Positions 960-11,551 of a stretch of 25,034 nt of DNA are shown here, piece after piece. The notes under the pieces are model-generated. The model worked only from the letters and a program-made list of their open reading frames with translations, was not told where the DNA came from and did not search any database. Location of the stretch: the IMG/VR virus record IMGVR_UViG_3300002132_000386, positions 1 to 25,034 of that record; one strand, given 5' to 3'. The DNA comes from a virus. Position 1 is the first letter of the stretch. Each line of letters starts with the position of its first letter. Position numbers and translations under genes: made by a program.

Positions 960-1889
960 TTATCTTCTGGCCATCACACCACAAATGCGGCCAATGATAT
1001 GCACACGCTCAAGTTCGACTTCATCAGTCTGAAGTGCCTGGTTGTCAGAAATAATCCTGACTCTAGCAGGCTGCGAAAAAGGTACGCGCTGCAGGCGTTT
1101 GATCTGGGGTTCGGAGTAGCCATCGGAGATCGCATAGACAGTATCAGCGACAAGCTTCGTCTGAGCCAGATCTACGATGACCCGATCTCCTGGCTGGTAA
1201 GTTGGCTGCATTGAATCGCCGACCACTTCCATCACGATAGTGCGGCCCGCATTGGCTTCCATAACGCCCACCAAAAAAGCTTCTGGTAAAACCCACTCTG
1301 CAACCACACGGTGACCACTCATTCCGCCGTTGGAGCCAATGCTAAGCATTTGGCCAACAGAACCCTCCCCGGCACCCAAGCGTACGTCGATCTCAGGTCT
1401 TGCTCCTTGAAGGCGCGGCTTCCAAGTTTCATGCGAATAACCTTCGCCGCTCTCATCTGCATCCGGATCATATGAACTGACCAAAGTCGTTCGCGCCTGG
1501 TCAGCGGGCAGATTATTGGGAGCCTCGAAAGAAAGCACTCCACTAACAATCCAAGACAACGGCACCTCCAACGCTAAAGAAAGCCCCTCAAGAACAGTGA
1601 AAGGAACATCCTCACCGCCTGCGTACCGACGCAGTTGTTTGAATGATTTCCCGACAGCGGCTTCCAGCGATTCAACGCCAATCTTTTGTCGGCCTATGAG
1701 AATGGCATAGGCGATCCGGTCAGACACGGACAATTTTGTCCCCAGCGGAAGAATATCATCCTTCATCCACTCGCGAAATCGTTTTGAAGGGTCTTCTCCG
1801 AGACCGCTAGTTATTGTTTTTAAACGCCATTCTTTGGTGGTTTGTTTTTGGGACATATTTGACTTTACAAAGGGACATATCTGTCCCAT
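960..1889 (-). CDS. S24-type C repressor (LexA/CI-like) of the prophage
   Basis: 309 residues from the upstream start. Residues about 50-118 are helical and look like an XRE-type helix-turn-helix. The C-terminal domain (about 195-309) is a peptidase S24 fold: Ser226 in VVGDSMQPT and Lys264 in QIKRLQR are the expected Ser/Lys pair. An Ala-Gly at 173-174 (LGAGEG) lies in the linker where LexA/CI-type repressors are cut, so self-cleavage during SOS is possible but unproven. It should keep early transcription off in the lysogen. Start choice is open: ATG at 1889 has a GAGGGG Shine-Dalgarno but puts the operator palindrome inside codons 1-6. ATG at 1856 (MSQKQTT) leaves the palindrome upstream but has a weak ribosome site. 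Confidence 0.88.
   Translation of the reverse strand: MGQICPFVKSNMSQKQTTKEWRLKTITSGLGEDPSKRFREWMKDDILPLGTKLSVSDRIAYAILIGRQKIGVESLEAAVGKSFKQLRRYAGGEDVPFTVLEGLSLALEVPLSWIVSGVLSFEAPNNLPADQARTTLVSSYDPDADESGEGYSHETWKPRLQGARPEIDVRLGAGEGSVGQMLSIGSNGGMSGHRVVAEWVLPEAFLVGVMEANAGRTIVMEVVGDSMQPTYQPGDRVIVDLAQTKLVADTVYAISDGYSEPQIKRLQRVPFSQPARVRIISDNQALQTDEVELERVHIIGRICGVMARR
1850..1887. promoter_or_regulatory. Candidate repressor operator: GGGACATATCTGTCCC palindrome plus half-site
   Basis: GGGACA-TATC-TGTCCC at 1872-1887 is a perfect 6+4+6 inverted repeat. A second half-site GGGACATAT lies at 1850-1858, 22 bases (about two turns) to the left of the first half of the palindrome. The location between the divergent repressor and ner genes, overlapping a candidate rightward promoter, is that expected of a phage operator. 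Binding by the C repressor is inferred. Ner is the other candidate ligand. Confidence 0.65.
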
Positions 1890-1964: not shown

Positions 1965-2270
1965 ATGCACGGCACGACATCCAAAGTCGATCCGAAGGTT
2001 AAAGAGCAGAGCGCCATCAAGGCCCGCCTGCTCGAAGCCGGGATCACCCTCGCGGATATTGATCGCAAATATGCCCTTTCTGATGGTTCCGCACGAAACA
2101 CCATGCGCGAACCCAACATAAAAGGTGAGCGCGCAATCGCCGCTGCTCTCGGCACAAAGCCTGAATTTCTCTGGCCGACCCGTTACAGGCCATCCGGTCA
2201 GCGACGATCACCCCAGGATTGGACACGAGTTCCGACGCTGGCACAACGCCGAAACGACCGGGCTGCGTAG
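1965..2270 (+). CDS. ner: Ner-like DNA-binding protein (early transcription regulator)
   Basis: 101 residues. Residues about 13-76 match the Mu Ner / SfsB-Nlp winged-helix family: a helix-turn-helix around ITLADIDRKYALSDGSARN, then the typical KGERAIAAALG and LWPTRY segment. In Mu, Ner binds between the divergent repressor and early promoters and damps both, favouring lytic growth. It is the first gene rightward from the operator, as in Mu, with GGAG at 1955-1958 ahead of the ATG. The last 25 residues are basic and not part of the conserved domain. Family assignment is strong; exact targets are inferred. Confidence 0.88.
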   Translation: MHGTTSKVDPKVKEQSAIKARLLEAGITLADIDRKYALSDGSARNTMREPNIKGERAIAAALGTKPEFLWPTRYRPSGQRRSPQDWTRVPTLAQRRNDRAA

Positions 2271-2272
2271 AC

Positions 2273-2410
2273 ATGAAGCGCAACCCATTTTCTCCTGACC
2301 TTGACGCCAACCGACCCACGGTTCCCGCAATCGCAATTGCAGGAACTGTGGCCACAGCCTTGGCAGTTTCAATCTATGTCCTTGTGTTTTTTGTAGGAGC
2401 AATCTCATGA
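2273..2410 (+). CDS. 45-residue single-TM early peptide, unknown function
   Basis: A short frame starting two bases after the ner stop and ending with ATGA overlap to the next gene at 2407. Residues 1-15 are polar; about 18-43 form one long hydrophobic segment (TVPAIAIAGTVATALAV onward). The tight fit between two genes supports it being real, with translation coupled to ner because no clear Shine-Dalgarno is present. Not recognised; a small membrane peptide made very early after induction. Confidence 0.6.
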   Translation: MKRNPFSPDLDANRPTVPAIAIAGTVATALAVSIYVLVFFVGAIS

Positions 2411-2754
2411 ACCGTTTCAGTGAGACCGAACTTTACGATCTGACCTTCCGGGTCTGCGTTGCATCGGTCAAACAGGCATTCCCCCACATTCCGGTGGCCA
2501 ACATTGTCGACCCTCCGAAAGGCCAATTTGACGCAGCACTTGCTCGTCAAATCGCCCTGCATTTGATGGTCGCCCGGTTTGGCCTGGTCAAGCACCGCGC
2601 CGGGAAACTGGTTGGTCGTTCAAGAGACTCCGTCAACCGCGCATTGGCTGCGGTGGACAATCGTTTGGACGAGCCGGATTTCGAAGCCCAATACCGCGTT
2701 GTCGCGGAACGGGCTGAGGCCATGTTCAATGACAAATTGCGGGAGGCCGCATGA
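2407..2754 (+). CDS. DnaA domain IV-like DNA-binding protein
   Basis: 115 residues. Residues about 43-86 (ARQIALHLMVARFG, then the KLVGRSRDSVNRALAAV helix pair) resemble the C-terminal DNA-binding domain of DnaA, which recognises DnaA boxes. There is no AAA+ ATPase domain, so it cannot act as a full initiator. Homologues occur in alphaproteobacterial Mu-like phages next to ner and the transposase. It overlaps the ParB-like gene by ATGATG, so both are made together. Possible jobs are binding phage ends or competing at host DnaA sites; neither is shown. Confidence 0.7.
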   Translation: MNRFSETELYDLTFRVCVASVKQAFPHIPVANIVDPPKGQFDAALARQIALHLMVARFGLVKHRAGKLVGRSRDSVNRALAAVDNRLDEPDFEAQYRVVAERAEAMFNDKLREAA

Positions 2755-3593
2755 TGGCGATCTCCAAGCTAATACCGCTTGCCGACATCTTTGTCCCTGA
2801 ACGGCTCCGCGCTGTTGACGAAGATCACGCACTGGCCATCCAGGCGTCGATTGTCGAGCATGGTCTCCTCAATCCGATCACAGTCCGAACTACTCCAAAT
2901 GGGGAGCAGAAATACACGCTTGTCGCGGGTGCGCATCGATTGCGAGCAATCGTACATCTCGATGAGGTCGAGATCGATGTGATCGTGGTCAAGGCGGACG
3001 CTGACGAAGCGGTGCTGATCGAGATTGAAGAGAACCTTTTTCGCAACGATCTCTCGGTGCTTGATCGCGCAGTTTTCGTTCACACCTACCGAGATGTATG
3101 GGAGAAAACTCGGGGTGAAATAAATCCGAAGGGCGGCCGACCGAAAAACAGTGCCAAGTTGGCACAGTTTTCAAACTCGCCAATCGACCTCGTTGCTCAA
3201 GAGGCCGAAAATGGGTTCTCGAAAGCGTGTGCAGATCGTCTCGGCGTATCCCGCCGTGCAATCTACCGGCTTAATACAATCGCCAAAAACTTACCCAGCG
3301 AAATCCGCTCGGCGATCAGCGGAACACCGATTGCTGATAACCAGAGCCAGCTGTTGAAATTGGCCAAACTGGAGCCGGAGAAACGCAACAAAGCCCATAT
3401 TGCGATCCGTGAGAGTAAGGGCGATTTCAAAGCAACAATTGCCCTACTGGAGCCACCCGCCAGGAAGCCAGATCCGGAGATGCAAATCCTCTCTCGTCTG
3501 ATTGACAGCTGGGAACGCGCAAAGCCTTCCACCCGCAAGCAATTTCTTGCCCATGCAGAACTCGCAGCGGCACCGAAAGTCGGTGCGAAATGA
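2751..3593 (+). CDS. ParB/Srx-fold (ParB-like nuclease domain) protein
   Basis: 280 residues. Residues about 5-100 form the ParB N-terminal fold: GAHRLRA at 60-66 corresponds to the GERRYRA (box II) motif, and ENLFRNDLS at 94-102 to the ENxxRxDLS box. A helix-turn-helix (about 155-175, KACADRLGVSRRAIYRL) follows, then a helical region up to 280. No ParA partner is visible, so plasmid-style partition is unlikely. ParB-domain proteins in transposable phages sit in the early block and may mark phage DNA or assist transposition, which is inference. The ATG at 2751 overlaps the upstream stop; a second ATG at 2754 is equally possible. Confidence 0.8.
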   Translation: MMAISKLIPLADIFVPERLRAVDEDHALAIQASIVEHGLLNPITVRTTPNGEQKYTLVAGAHRLRAIVHLDEVEIDVIVVKADADEAVLIEIEENLFRNDLSVLDRAVFVHTYRDVWEKTRGEINPKGGRPKNSAKLAQFSNSPIDLVAQEAENGFSKACADRLGVSRRAIYRLNTIAKNLPSEIRSAISGTPIADNQSQLLKLAKLEPEKRNKAHIAIRESKGDFKATIALLEPPARKPDPEMQILSRLIDSWERAKPSTRKQFLAHAELAAAPKVGAK

Positions 3594-4057
3594 GTAAATC
3601 CGACCCAAATCAGCTCGGTCTGTTCGAGAACCGTGTCTATCCAGAGCGGATAGAAGTTGGCTCTGTTGATCTTGATCGCTTCCGTTCAGAAATTAAACGA
3701 GCGATGTCACGCGCAATTCGCGAGAGCGGTTATGACCGACAAACCATCGCCTTGCGCATGGCGCAGTATCTCGGACTACCAAACTTATCGAAAACCACGC
3801 TCGACGCTTACACGGCCGAAAGCAAGGACAGTCATGACATCAGCCTGTTGAGGTTCTCGGCCTTCGTTCACGCCACCGGTGCAAAATGGCTGTTTGATCT
3901 TGTCGTGTCGAAAGCAGGCATGACCGTCCTTGAGGGTTCCGAGGCCAAGCTCGCCGAAATCGCCCGCCTTGATCAGGAAAAGCGAATCATCAGTGCCGAA
4001 CTGCGCAAACTTCGCGCACGACCAGTCGAACCAAAAGGCTGGAGACGGCAATCGTGA
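3590..4057 (+). CDS. Unknown early protein directly before transposase A (probable DNA-binding)
   Basis: 155 residues, overlapping the ParB-like gene and the transposase gene by four bases each. The N-terminal LGLFEN stretch is followed by helices at about 28-62 (RSEIKRAMSRAIRESGYDR, then ALRMAQYLG) that could form a helix-turn-helix; a coiled-coil-prone basic tail covers about 120-155. I do not assign a family. Its fixed position between ParB-like protein and transposase suggests a role in transposition or early regulation. Confidence 0.65.
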   Translation: MSKSDPNQLGLFENRVYPERIEVGSVDLDRFRSEIKRAMSRAIRESGYDRQTIALRMAQYLGLPNLSKTTLDAYTAESKDSHDISLLRFSAFVHATGAKWLFDLVVSKAGMTVLEGSEAKLAEIARLDQEKRIISAELRKLRARPVEPKGWRRQS

Positions 4058-5991
4058 AACAGTTTTTCAGCCCGAAAGAGATCGCAGACGCGGCAGGAAT
4101 TTCCGAGCGCGCTGTTAACAAGATGGCTGCCAAATACCGGTGGCGACACCAAGAGGCAAAAGCCCGCAAGCGCAATGTCAGCGGCGGCGGCTGGGAGTAT
4201 CATCACTCACTTGTTCCCTCAGTGGCTCAAGCGCGGCTGGCCATGGCCCACAGCGCTCCGGCCAATGCCAACCCTGATAAGGTCAGCGTTGCAAGGTTAG
4301 AGCTCTGGGCGGTCTATGAAGGGCTTTCTCAGGATCGAAAAGCCGCCTGTGAAGCACGTTTGAATATTCTGGCGGAAGTTGCCGCATCTATCGCTGCAGG
4401 ATTGAATGAAACTGCTGCCATTGCGATGTCTGCCAGAAACCAAAACGTGAGCGCTCGCGCCATTCGCAATTGGCGCGGACGGGTTGCAGGTGTCGAACGG
4501 CAGGATTGGCTTGCGGCCCTTGCCGATCAATATAACTCAGCTTCAACTTTTGCCGCCGTCGATCTAGATGCCTGGGCAACGCTTAAGAGCGATTACCTGC
4601 GACCCGAACGACCTGCATTTTCAGCCTGCTATCGCCGCGTGAAGGAAGCGGCAAAAGAACAAGGTTGGTCACCGATACCGGCCGAGCGGGCACTTCGTCG
4701 CCGGTTTGAGGCCGAAGTCCCAAAAGCAGTTCAGACCGCCGCCCGCCAGAAAAGCGAGCGGGTCAAAAACCTCTATCCAGCTCAGCGCCGCGATCGATCC
4801 GGGCTTCACGCCATGGAAGCTGTCAATATGGACGGCCACAAGTTCGACGTGTTCGTTCAACTACCGGGCCAACCTTCGCCAACGCGCGTGATGCTGCTTG
4901 CGCTGCAAGACCTTTATTCAGGCAAGATGGTCGCATGGCGGCTCTCGCCGTCTGAGAACAAAGACACTGTTCGCCTGGTGATTGGCGATATGGTAAGTCG
5001 CCACGGCATTCCTGACAAAATACTGCTCGATAATGGTCGCGCATTTGCCTCCAAATGGATCACAGGCGGTGCGCCAAACCGGTATCGTTTCAAGGTACGC
5101 GACGAGGACCCGCGCGGTTTGCTGACAACACTCGGTGTCGAGATCATCTGGGCCACGCCCTATTCCGGCCAATCCAAACCCATCGAACGCGCTTTTCGGG
5201 ATCTGGCAGAAAACATTGCTAAGCACCCGTTTTGCTCTGGCGCTTACACCGGCAACACGCCCGACGCCAAGCCAGAGAATTACGCATCCCGCGCCGTCCC
5301 ATATGCCGAATTTTCCGCCCATGTCGACCGCATGATCGCCGAGCATAATGCTCGGCCAGGTCGCACAGCCGGAAACGCCGCAGGCCGGTCTTTTGATGAA
5401 GCCTTTTCGGCATCACTTGAAGAGCCAACAACGCTGATCCGTTGGCCGACCGAAAACCAGCGCGCACTCTGGCTGCTGGCTGGTGAACGCATCCGGGCCA
5501 AGAAGGGATCAGGCGAGATCCATATCTTTGGTAATCGCTACTGGAACAAGGCACTCAATGGCCATGCCGGAAAAAACGTCACGATCCGGTTTGATCCCGA
5601 TCATCTGACGCAGCCAATTCGCGTCTACGACGCCAATGACAATTTGATTTGTGTAGCCGATTGCATCGCTGACACCGGGTTCTTCGACACCACTGCCGCC
5701 CGCGATCATGCAGCCAAACGCAACCAACTGACCAAGGCTATCCGCGAGAGTGCGCGCCTTCATACAGAGCTTTCTCCGGATGCTCTCGCCGAAATCTATG
5801 GTGCGGGAAATTCCGCTCCGGAACCCAAACCTGAACCGCCAAAATTCAAACGTGTTGCCAATGGCCCAGCAATGCCATCCCCCCAATCTGAGTGGGATGA
5901 CCAATCAGAAGAAGCCTTCTCGCGGGCCATGCGGATGCTTGAAAAGAACGTCATCGAATTCCCCGCCAAAGGGGAAAAAACCGGCCGCTGA
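4054..5991 (+). CDS. Mu-type DDE transposase A
   Basis: 645 residues, close to Mu A (663). Residues 1-65 contain an N-terminal Mu-type DNA-binding fold (FSPKEIADAAGISERAVNKMA), and 75-240 the helical end-binding domain. The catalytic core carries the DDE triad: Asp260 (VNMDGHKF), Asp326 (ILLDNGRAFAS) and Glu378 (QSKPIERAFRDLAENI), matching the spacing of Mu A D269/D336/E392. The C-terminal part (about 455-645) is the Mu-transposase beta-barrel and tail region that contacts B. It cuts and joins phage ends for integration and replicative transposition. All key residues are intact, so the element could be active. Confidence 0.96.
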   Translation: MKQFFSPKEIADAAGISERAVNKMAAKYRWRHQEAKARKRNVSGGGWEYHHSLVPSVAQARLAMAHSAPANANPDKVSVARLELWAVYEGLSQDRKAACEARLNILAEVAASIAAGLNETAAIAMSARNQNVSARAIRNWRGRVAGVERQDWLAALADQYNSASTFAAVDLDAWATLKSDYLRPERPAFSACYRRVKEAAKEQGWSPIPAERALRRRFEAEVPKAVQTAARQKSERVKNLYPAQRRDRSGLHAMEAVNMDGHKFDVFVQLPGQPSPTRVMLLALQDLYSGKMVAWRLSPSENKDTVRLVIGDMVSRHGIPDKILLDNGRAFASKWITGGAPNRYRFKVRDEDPRGLLTTLGVEIIWATPYSGQSKPIERAFRDLAENIAKHPFCSGAYTGNTPDAKPENYASRAVPYAEFSAHVDRMIAEHNARPGRTAGNAAGRSFDEAFSASLEEPTTLIRWPTENQRALWLLAGERIRAKKGSGEIHIFGNRYWNKALNGHAGKNVTIRFDPDHLTQPIRVYDANDNLICVADCIADTGFFDTTAARDHAAKRNQLTKAIRESARLHTELSPDALAEIYGAGNSAPEPKPEPPKFKRVANGPAMPSPQSEWDDQSEEAFSRAMRMLEKNVIEFPAKGEKTGR

Positions 5992-6013: not shown

Positions 6014-6035
6014 TGGGCGGGGAAAACCCCACCCA
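6014..6035. terminator. Hairpin between transposase A and B genes
   Basis: TGGGCGGGG-AAAA-CCCCACCCA forms a 9-bp stem with one mismatch and an AAAA loop. On the plus strand it is followed by A residues, so it is not a classical terminator there and may act as an attenuator or mRNA stabiliser between A and B. On the minus strand it is followed by a run of seven T, which would terminate antisense transcription. Confidence 0.4.
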
Positions 6036-6061: not shown

Positions 6062-7099
6062 ATGAACAAAGCAGCAAGCACAAGCCCGACTCTACAATCA
6101 GGGTGGTCTCGTTCAAATACCGAACCCGATATTTCCGGGCATCGCCCAGGTCGATCCGAAGCCGACCGGGACTTGTGGAGAATACTGTCCACGAAGGTTG
6201 AAGAGCTTGGCTCAAAACATGGCTGGAGTAAGAGTGAGGTTTCACGCCGAATTGGGATGCCGGATGGAACTTTCAATCAGTGGTTCTCAGGCAAATATGA
6301 CGGGCGGCTTGATGCCCAGAACGAGAAGGTGGAGCGCTGGATTGCCTCGGTCGAAGAAATGGCCGGGCTGGCGGCAACAGTTCCAACAAGCCCCGGCTTC
6401 ATTCACACGAAATCGGCTTCGGTAATCATCGACGCGTTGTTGTTCGCGCAAATGATGCCGGATTTCGTAACCATTACTGCAGCGGCTGGCACTGGCAAGA
6501 CGTGCGCCTGCAGGCAATTTTCAACTACCCGGTCCAATGTGTTCATGGTCACCATGAGCCCGCACACCAAAACGGTGCATGGAATGTTGGTCGAACTGGC
6601 TACCGCTCTTGATATCACCCAACACAATCCGGCGAAGCTGGTTCGTGCTGTGGGTCGAAGGCTTGAGAACAGCGGTGGTGGATCGCTGCTGATTGTTGAC
6701 GAGGCTCAAAACCTGATCGACAGTGCCGTGGATCAACTCCGTCACTTTGTCGATATCTATTCCTGCGGTGTGGCACTGGTTGGAAATGAAGAAATCTACT
6801 CTCGGTTTTCGCGAAACACTGACGGCCCTTCCTATGCCCAGATCAAACGTCGGATCGGTAAGCGGGTTCGCTTGGCCAAGCCACGCGCCGAGGACATCAA
6901 CGCACTTCTGGACGCCTGGTCGATAACCGACCCTGAAACCCGCAGAGTTCTGACTGGCATAGGCATGAAGGACGGCGCTTTGGGTCAGATTGACAAGACA
7001 ATCAAACTCGCATCCATGACCGCAGCTGGTTCCGGTCAACCAATTGACTCGACAGCAATCCGCGAAGCGTGGGCCAACCGCGATGTGGAGGGTATGTGA
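6062..7099 (+). CDS. Mu B-like AAA+ ATPase, transposition target activator
   Basis: 345 residues. An N-terminal helix-turn-helix (about 45-82, KHGWSKSEVSRRIGMPDGT) resembles the domain of Mu B. The ATPase core has Walker A AAGTGKT (141-147), Walker B LLIVDEAQ (209-216) and GNEE at 241-244 in the sensor position; a helical C-terminal domain follows. B coats target DNA in an ATP-dependent way, brings it to the transposase complex and provides target immunity. It lies 70 bases after the transposase gene, as in Mu. Confidence 0.93.
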   Translation: MNKAASTSPTLQSGWSRSNTEPDISGHRPGRSEADRDLWRILSTKVEELGSKHGWSKSEVSRRIGMPDGTFNQWFSGKYDGRLDAQNEKVERWIASVEEMAGLAATVPTSPGFIHTKSASVIIDALLFAQMMPDFVTITAAAGTGKTCACRQFSTTRSNVFMVTMSPHTKTVHGMLVELATALDITQHNPAKLVRAVGRRLENSGGGSLLIVDEAQNLIDSAVDQLRHFVDIYSCGVALVGNEEIYSRFSRNTDGPSYAQIKRRIGKRVRLAKPRAEDINALLDAWSITDPETRRVLTGIGMKDGALGQIDKTIKLASMTAAGSGQPIDSTAIREAWANRDVEGM

Positions 7100-10348: not shown

Positions 10349-10572
10349 CCCGGCGAACCGTCTACAAAATGGCTGTGATCTACACGCTGATGATTTCAGT
10401 GGTGATCCATTTTGTTGATGGTTTGACACCATCGGCATTCGTCATCGGCATATCGGTGACGTGGTTCTCAGTTGGGCGCCTGTCGACACATCCAATTGAC
10501 CCTTTTTCGTGGCTGAATGAGCCATCAGATCAAACGGATGAAAACAAGCCGCAACAGTGGGGGCGGGAATGA
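10345..10572 (+). CDS. Small membrane protein, two hydrophobic segments
   Basis: 75 residues with a GTG start at 10345 that overlaps the stop of the preceding gene. Two hydrophobic segments, about residues 7-24 and 29-46, are followed by a polar tail. Position between gemA and the methyltransferase. Not recognised. The GTG start is supported by AAAGAGGT about 6 bases upstream. Confidence 0.6.
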   Translation: MTRRTVYKMAVIYTLMISVVIHFVDGLTPSAFVIGISVTWFSVGRLSTHPIDPFSWLNEPSDQTDENKPQQWGRE

Positions 10573-11183
10573 TCTGGCCGTTCGATGGATTGTCTCCACT
10601 CAAATATGGCGTGATCCTAGCCGATCCGCCGTGGGCTTACTCGATGCGCTCCGGCAAAGGTTATGAGAAAAGCCCTGAGGCACATTACGAGACAATGCCT
10701 CTCGACGCGATCAAAGCTCTACCGGTGCGGGATCTCGCGGCCGGTGACTGTTTGCTGTTCATGTGGTCAACCTGGCCGCATCTATTTCAAGCTGCTGAGG
10801 TCATGACCGCGTGGGGCTTTACCTACAAAACCGGAGGATCATGGTTCAAGAAAACCATAAAGGGTAAATCCGCATTTGGGACTGGTTACATTATGCGTTC
10901 TTCATGTGAACCTTACCTCGTTGGCTCTATCGGCAAGCCCTTCATTCAATCCCGATCAGAGCGAAATGGGTTCGAGGCAGACGAACCGACGAATGATTTA
11001 ACAATTATCCCTGATCGTATCGATGCGGTGCGGCGTGAACATTCACGCAAACCATCTGAAATGCGCGAGATCATTGAACGGCTGTGCCCACATGCATTTG
11101 GTGCCGAGTTGTTTGCCCGCGAACCATGGGCTGGATTTGATACCTGGGGCGACCAGTCCGATTTGTTCGAGGCAGCTGAATGA
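10569..11183 (+). CDS. MT-A70 family DNA adenine-N6 methyltransferase
   Basis: 204 residues from ATG 10569, chosen because GGGGCGGGA precedes it and the ATGA overlaps the upstream stop; a GTG four codons earlier is less likely. The catalytic DPPW motif lies at residues 19-22, followed by the SAM/target region and the C-terminal EMREIIERLCPHAFGAELFAREPWAGFDTWGD pattern of the MT-A70 family. It should methylate adenine N6 in DNA, perhaps to protect phage DNA from host restriction, as Mu does by a different route with Mom. No cognate endonuclease is near, so it is an orphan enzyme. Target sequence unknown. Confidence 0.9.
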   Translation: MIWPFDGLSPLKYGVILADPPWAYSMRSGKGYEKSPEAHYETMPLDAIKALPVRDLAAGDCLLFMWSTWPHLFQAAEVMTAWGFTYKTGGSWFKKTIKGKSAFGTGYIMRSSCEPYLVGSIGKPFIQSRSERNGFEADEPTNDLTIIPDRIDAVRREHSRKPSEMREIIERLCPHAFGAELFAREPWAGFDTWGDQSDLFEAAE

Positions 11184-11551
11184 CAGAAGTTGCCCGTTCC
11201 GCTGAATTGAAAACGCTTTTGGGCGCAGATGACTACGTGCGTCTCGCTGAACACTTTGGCGGAACACGGCTCTTTATACCGGCACGTGAAACACGCACCA
11301 AACTGTCCCGCGCGCTTGGAACTGAACCCGCCGAGAAATTGGCCAGACGCTATGCAGGTACATATCTACGCGTCCCTCTTGCCCGCGAGGACCGCGCAAG
11401 GCAATATCGCGCTGGCGGAGCATCGAATGCTGAAATAGCTCGTGCGCTAGGAATTACGGAAACTGGCGTCGACAAGATCTTCAATCGAATGCCAAACAAG
11501 CCCGCCAAAGGCGCAGATCCGCGTCAAGGGCAACTCTTCCCCTCCGACTAA
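11180..11551 (+). CDS. Mor-family transcription activator
   Basis: 123 residues. LAEHFGGTRLFIP (22-34) is the Mor-family dimerisation strand; residues about 74-103 (RQYRAGGASNAEIARALG, then TETGVDKIF) form the helix-turn-helix. A second copy of the first motif, LARRYAGTYLRVPLARE (54-70), gives an internal duplication. In Mu, Mor activates the middle promoter and its relative C the late promoters. Only one such gene is seen here, so it may switch on the lysis and head genes directly. It ends the semi-early block and is followed by a hairpin. Confidence 0.82.
   Translation: MTEVARSAELKTLLGADDYVRLAEHFGGTRLFIPARETRTKLSRALGTEPAEKLARRYAGTYLRVPLAREDRARQYRAGGASNAEIARALGITETGVDKIFNRMPNKPAKGADPRQGQLFPSD

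Follow-up and report, generated by a model that had tools for sequence, protein, structure and literature searches.

Gene transfer agents are regarded as phages that became domesticated, and few relatives of their activators GafA and GafYZ are known. GafY is homologous to domain IV of DnaA and binds the gene transfer agent (GTA) promoters of Caulobacter, and a regulation of oriC replication by this protein was rejected in favour of a role in transcription (PMC9632790). RpoD is one of its interaction partners and IHF acts together with it; GafZ contributes anti-termination (PMC11150451). In Rhodobacter, mutations in the DnaA-like domain of GafA impair activation, and in the Hyphomicrobiales the gafA gene is preceded by a small DnaA-like gene (PMC9638019). 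A gafA gene is also carried by Roseophage RDJL-Phi-1, where this GafA relative is tied to a CtrA-like gene and to structural genes of GTA type and not to a Mu-type early operon (PMC6363796). With regard to Mu-like phages, a ParB gene before the transposase gene was described for vB_ThpS-P1 and vB_PeaS-P1, together with the remark that it is absent from Mu (PMC5488378).

The stretch of DNA analysed here (the window, 25,034 nucleotides) is a 25 kb virus record from IMG/VR, which starts close to the left side of a probable Mu-type phage and breaks off in the tail region. Its early operon encodes a protein of 115 amino acids which, in analogy to GafY (CCNA_01111 of Caulobacter, the N-terminal domain of GafA and the product of the Hyphomicrobiales gene before gafZ), is predicted to be a stand-alone DnaA-domain-IV fold. 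Like the GafY-like proteins examined, it carries Arg where DnaA has His434. Both are encoded by a small gene coupled to the gene of a larger DNA-binding protein, and both have a tie to phage-type gene expression. The two differ in the partner, which is GafZ (DUF6456) in the one case, whereas a ParB occupies the partner slot in the phage, and in the recognition helix, which reads RDR[TS]TV in GafY and R[SQK]R[ET][AS][IV] in the phage family. Furthermore, the phage protein, unlike GafY, sits in a Mu-type early operon. A literature search found no mention of such a GafY-like or DnaA-IV-like protein in Mu-type phages.

Layout and conservation of the early operon

The features of the early region are collected in Table 1. 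A, B and Ner were identified via Pfam and PHROG, while the GemA-, Mor-, terminase- and portal-like genes were assigned solely by reading the open reading frames against the gene order of phage StopSmel, up to the end of the contig in the tail region. From the micro-ORF through A successive genes are joined by four-base overlaps, the one between the DnaA-IV-like and the ParB-like gene being the ATGA at 2751-2754. Between the repressor and gene A a single plus-strand promoter-like match was found, at 1864-1892 ahead of ner, which fits, without proving, one early transcript. A preliminary description of this DNA had placed a translationally coupled DnaA-like/ParB-like pair ahead of a Mu-type transposase. 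The coupling is borne out by the overlap, and A and B are clear, although one gene, the third small regulator, intervenes between ParB and A.

Table 1 Features of the early region of the window.
Feature	Position	Strand	Basis or remark
S24-peptidase-type repressor (cI/c)	960-1889	-	PF00717 52.2 bits; phrog_4 transcriptional repressor; divergent from early operon
Ner-like regulator, gene 1 of early operon	1965-2270	+	HTH_35 PF13693 63 bits; phrog_769
Micro-ORF, 45 aa, single membrane span	2273-2410	+	stop overlaps ATG of DnaA-IV-like gene
Stand-alone protein with predicted DnaA-domain-IV fold, probable GafY lineage, phrog_9734, 115 aa	2407-2754	+	fold, profile, tree
ParB/RepB/Spo0J-family protein without ParA, phrog_3264, 280 aa	2751-3593	+	PF02195, TIGR00180; Noc/ParB/KorB structures
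Third small regulator, between ParB and transposase	3590-4057	+	phrog_2345, 148 bits
Mu-type transposase A, GTG start	4054-5991	+	PF02914 162 bits, PF09039, PF09299
Transposition protein B	6062-7099	+	PF09077 84.7 bits, AAA_22

The order ner, DnaA-IV-like gene, ParB, regulator, MuA is kept in 144 of the 179 fetched loci, a redundant set in which the same contigs are repeated, and the co-linearity with A and B that had been proposed is supported. This order is a hallmark of Mu-type phages of the Hyphomicrobiales and recurs far beyond chance; the DnaA-IV-like/ParB feature is genuine, conserved and largely unannotated. Mu is absent from the tblastn matches, consistent with the earlier statement that Mu itself has neither gene. 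A ParB gene preceding the transposase gene was known before and is already annotated in alphaproteobacterial Mu-like phages: in RcapMu (RcapMu13), RR1-B (RHYG_00005), POA1180 (GP39), Aussie and StopSmel, as in vB_ThpS-P1, it holds the same place before the phrog_2345 regulator and transposase A.

A scan with the ParB alignment, combined with one using the RcapMu ParB, yielded 65 loci in which the ParB frame is preceded by 900 bases or more, and the DnaA-IV-like gene is present in 60 of them. The remaining five are two of the RcapMu kind and the sister-phage loci L287, L296 and L299, to which we return below. Both RcapMu and RR1-B carry ParB and the phrog_2345 regulator without a detectable DnaA-IV-like gene, and a Pfam search for a hidden DnaA-IV domain in the genes preceding their ParB found none. 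Several Bartonella genomes (many of the loci L130-L179) contain more than one copy of the early region, with some frames broken. A link to the run-off replication origin of Bartonella was considered and rejected; the paper on that origin gives a lambda-like O/helicase region and mentions no DnaA, ParB or Mu-like phage.

Several further elements were noted along the window. The micro-ORF, which the preliminary description did not mention, has counterparts in many relatives (M[RK]NPFIPS... followed by a hydrophobic stretch), which mostly end at most 4 bases from the DnaA-IV-like start; it gave zero Pfam or PHROG matches. In the ner leader a hairpin at 1926-1941 (GGGGC-loop-GCCCC after an A run) reads as a minus-strand intrinsic terminator, and a comparison of ten relatives shows that in three of its six pairs both partners are exchanged with pairing retained. 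A strong hairpin is also found in the A-B gap (6014-6035), and G+C-rich inverted repeats occur in the same gap of StopSmel (L012, 6176) and Aussie (L013, 7852). The element TCCGGGAATA is repeated at 45-75 near the left end, with one reverse copy at 1912-1921 between repressor and ner; it was discarded as a conserved element, as it is not kept in relatives. By eye, the ORF at 10557-11183, just before the Mor-like gene, shows a DPPW motif and resembles an MT-A70-type adenine methyltransferase.

The DnaA-domain-IV-like protein and its relationship to GafY

Taken alone, the 115-aa protein has no Pfam match and does not reach the gathering score of Bac_DnaA_C, against which the best member of the alignment of its relatives (A1) gave an E value of 0.01. 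NCBIfam matches are weak (PRK06030 2.6e-4, DnaA 0.064), and the 21.2 bits obtained for the PRK06030 equivalog lie far under its 181-bit cut-off; the scores point to a distant relative of the PRK06030 proteins and no orthologue. The protein clearly matches PHROG 9734 (4e-29), a family of unknown function. An AlphaFold model built on an alignment of 54 phage relatives reached a pLDDT of 94.7, and its top Foldseek matches are the DnaA-DNA complexes of M. tuberculosis and E. coli. In VIA-align the Z scores against DnaA domain IV were 14.2 (3pvp), 13.7 (1j1v) and 13.5, compared with at most 6.0 for unrelated folds. The model thus argues strongly for the DnaA domain IV fold, as had been suggested from the sequence, and this fold makes up the whole protein, which has no AAA+ ATPase part.

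We take His434 and Asp433 to be box-reading residues of DnaA. When the phage family was aligned on the DnaA-DNA structure 3pvp, the Arg-Gln at the helix start proved to be kept (R47-Q48 in 62 of 62 phage sequences), while 61 of 62 relatives carry Arg at the position of His434 (R71-x-R73). The recognition helix accordingly reads R-[S/Q/K]-R-[E/T]-[A/S]-[I/V] in the phage family versus R-D-H-T-T-V in DnaA, with the neighbours Asp433, Thr435 and Thr436 mostly replaced by Ser, Glu or Ala, and the residue equivalent to the minor-groove Arg399 varies. The roles of T435, R399/S400 and R442/K443 in DnaA are taken from the literature (PMC9638019). The search for DnaA boxes gave no TTATNCACA in the window and two one-mismatch boxes, compared with 3.5 expected; in five related phages the counts were near chance in most, without general enrichment. 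Since His434 and its neighbours are replaced across the family and boxes are not enriched, the protein does not look like a DnaA-box reader, and a reading in terms of replication is unlikely.

PF08299 detects DnaA-IV domains of three kinds in the carrier genomes: DnaA itself, some further DnaA-IV proteins which keep the RDH motif, and a stand-alone protein carrying RDR/K[S/T], which most of these genomes encode. The gene of the latter is followed by DUF6456 (GafZ) in both of the loci checked, and SufE was confirmed in one; with these neighbours, as described for gafA of the Hyphomicrobiales (PMC9638019), the chromosomal stand-alone proteins are identified by context as GafY. In Fulvimarina endophytica (genome G007, contig 23; L189 at 445662 and L197 at 446592) two DnaA-IV-domain genes that keep RDH were observed about 0.9 kb apart.

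Profile comparison of the phage family with the GafY-like proteins resulted in a probability of 93.7 (E 1.9e-7, 78 ungapped columns), compared with a probability of 5 for alphaproteobacterial DnaA-IV, whose profile is shallow. In a tree over 89 columns the split that sets phage proteins plus GafY apart from DnaA and the remaining DnaA-IV proteins has a support of 100/98. The AU test disfavours a clade of phage proteins and DnaA with a p-AU of 0.032, which falls short of compelling, and with 2.3 changes per column the phage branch is a long one, so that the grouping with GafY could partly reflect long-branch behaviour. In the sister phages L287, L296 and L299 the same slot before ParB is occupied by a protein that carries GRDRTTV, the GafY-type motif, and for L287 and L296 it passes the Pfam cut-off of Bac_DnaA_C (37.0 and 34.5 bits versus 31.5). 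With these three added, a branch with a support of 89/95, which is not starred, has the phage and bridge proteins together on one side, and the split from DnaA remains at 100/98. The evidence for GafY proteins as the closest relatives of the phage family is therefore good, if not final. GafZ (DUF6456) was above the cut-off in none of 15 phage records, from which it follows that the phage GafY-like protein must have other partners.

The ParB-like protein and co-variation within the operon

ParB-family proteins like Noc and KorB function without having their own ParA in that role. The 280-aa protein exceeds the cut-offs of PF02195 (36.9 bits, cut-off 26.3) and TIGR00180 (73.8 bits, cut-off 58.45), and its model (pLDDT 86.7) matches the PDB structures of Noc, ParB and KorB, so that the ParB-like character stated in the preliminary description is confirmed and the protein can be placed, from these scores, in the ParB/RepB/Spo0J family. 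The second nucleotide motif, E94NLxRNxLS, is near invariant (E94 in 56 of 56, N95 in 55 and R98 in 52 of 56 sequences), and the first is G60xHR (R63 in 55 of 56), with GxHR in place of GERR. Judging by these motifs, the protein may use CTP. No ParA (PF13614) was detected in the window or in five complete phages, as had been anticipated. In comparison with the ParA-less proteins Noc, KorB and PadC, the ParB-N and HTH folds, the ENLxR motif and the lack of a ParA partner are the same; the C-terminal part of the window protein is short (two helices in the model) and its first motif is GxHR.

Convincing parS-like repeated palindromes were found neither in the window nor in StopSmel or Aussie. For RR1-B (L015) four exact copies of a 23-bp palindrome, TGACCGGAAC-N3-GTTCCGGTCA, were observed at 11530, 18994, 26071 and 31108 (none expected by chance), each in a gap before a late gene group, the first directly after the Mor-like gene. 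In RcapMu (L014), CCCCCGGAC-N4-GTCCGGGGG occurs twice, each time before late genes (13946, 22367). These palindromes are candidate sites of a late activator or of ParB, the late activator being an equally good binder. A palindrome with arms GGCGCGCC and a 5-base spacer lies between the mor gene and the lysozyme gene of StopSmel (L012, 11753) and Aussie (L013, 13430).

The co-variation of protein distances was computed over 97 non-redundant loci. ParB distances track those of MuA (r 0.73) and of the phrog_2345 regulator (0.71), whereas the DnaA-like protein tracks the other operon proteins less (0.49-0.51). Length alone cannot explain the weaker correlation, because the regulator is short too. 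In the partial correlations ParB remains associated with MuA (0.43) and with the regulator (0.41), and a parallel co-variation of the DnaA-like protein and ParB beyond their shared operon was not seen (partial r 0.07). These distances favour the view that ParB, the regulator and A make up a core and that the GafY-like gene, being more exchangeable, was added to it.

Proposed role of the two proteins and its meaning

The best explanation overall, to which we assign a probability of roughly 0.5, is a transcription regulator of the GafY lineage beside a clamp-like protein of the ParB type. According to this explanation the 115-aa protein would represent the GafY lineage in phages and consist of a lone DnaA-domain-IV fold with altered recognition helix. 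Expressed early as part of the ner-A-B operon, it most likely recognises sites of its own on phage DNA, and perhaps also on host DNA, and would regulate transcription at phage promoters as GafY does at GTA promoters via RpoD and IHF, here without the GafZ partner. The 280-aa protein would be a ParA-less, Noc/KorB-like ParB that most likely works as a DNA clamp gated by CTP. Functionally it would belong with the transposition core (regulator, A), and its task there may be to mark phage DNA, to organise it or to act as a KorB-like repressor. DNA binding, regulation and CTP use, as well as all target sites of both proteins, are what we infer, and the transcription role of GafY does not prove one for its phage relative. 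For neither of the two proteins did a conserved binding site emerge.

Four other explanations were weighed. ParB may mark phage DNA or affect target choice. As a separate explanation, a marker that loads at a phage site, spreads and either prevents self-integration or organises copies for packaging appears rather unlikely to us. In its favour are the family scores and the conserved ENLxR motif, the strongest co-variation, which is that with MuA and the third regulator, and the retention of ParB in phages without the DnaA-like gene. MuB is the textbook immunity factor, however, and is present in the window, and a search of the window, StopSmel and Aussie gave no parS-like repeated palindrome.

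It is unlikely that both proteins together make up a single two-part regulator like GafY-GafZ or KorA-KorB. The four-base overlap recurs in 109 loci, the gene order is fixed, and chromosomal gafY and gafZ are coupled likewise (L204, 3298-3744 and 3744-4538). Against this stand the differing spacing of both genes in some loci, the partial correlation close to zero and the ParB of RcapMu and RR1-B that stands without a DnaA-like gene. The last two points also weaken the earlier view of the pair as one functional unit.

We consider it improbable that the phage GafY relative targets the GTA of the host, blocking or exploiting GafY-controlled promoters in infection. A GafY-lineage protein without GafZ might act as a dominant-negative, hosts such as Hoeflea and Pannonibacter have chromosomal GafY-like genes, and there is a precedent in TgrL of phage phiCbK, which represses the host gafYZ (PMC10688885); the recognition helix, however, is unlike that of host GafY, and the carriers Bartonella rattimassiliensis and Rhizobium sophoriradicis show no DnaA-IV gene besides DnaA. 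Least probable by our estimate is the role at DnaA boxes favoured in the preliminary description, namely interference with host initiation or steering of replication or target choice, which has the fold and the shared early operon with A and B on its side and is opposed by the family-wide loss of box-reading residues, by box counts below expectation in the window and near chance in most of the five related phages, and by the nearer relationship to GafY, whose involvement in replication was rejected (PMC9632790).

The regulator of the GafY lineage thus remains the preferred reading, and the 115-aa protein more likely controls transcription than replication, which corrects a natural misreading of such DnaA-IV-like genes as replication factors. 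With considerable reservation, we suggest that an early regulator of Hyphomicrobiales Mu-type phages homologous to the GTA master activator might reflect either the origin of GTA activators, through domestication of a phage early regulator, or a competition at host GafY-type promoters. If this is true, the slot relatives in L287, L296 and L299 with their GafY-type motif would represent an evolutionary bridge. A widespread phage family so far listed under "unknown function", with a fixed place in the early operon and a probable relationship to GafY, would offer an accessible system for how a DnaA-IV fold becomes a transcription activator, and would allow one to study whether phages and GTAs share regulatory circuits.
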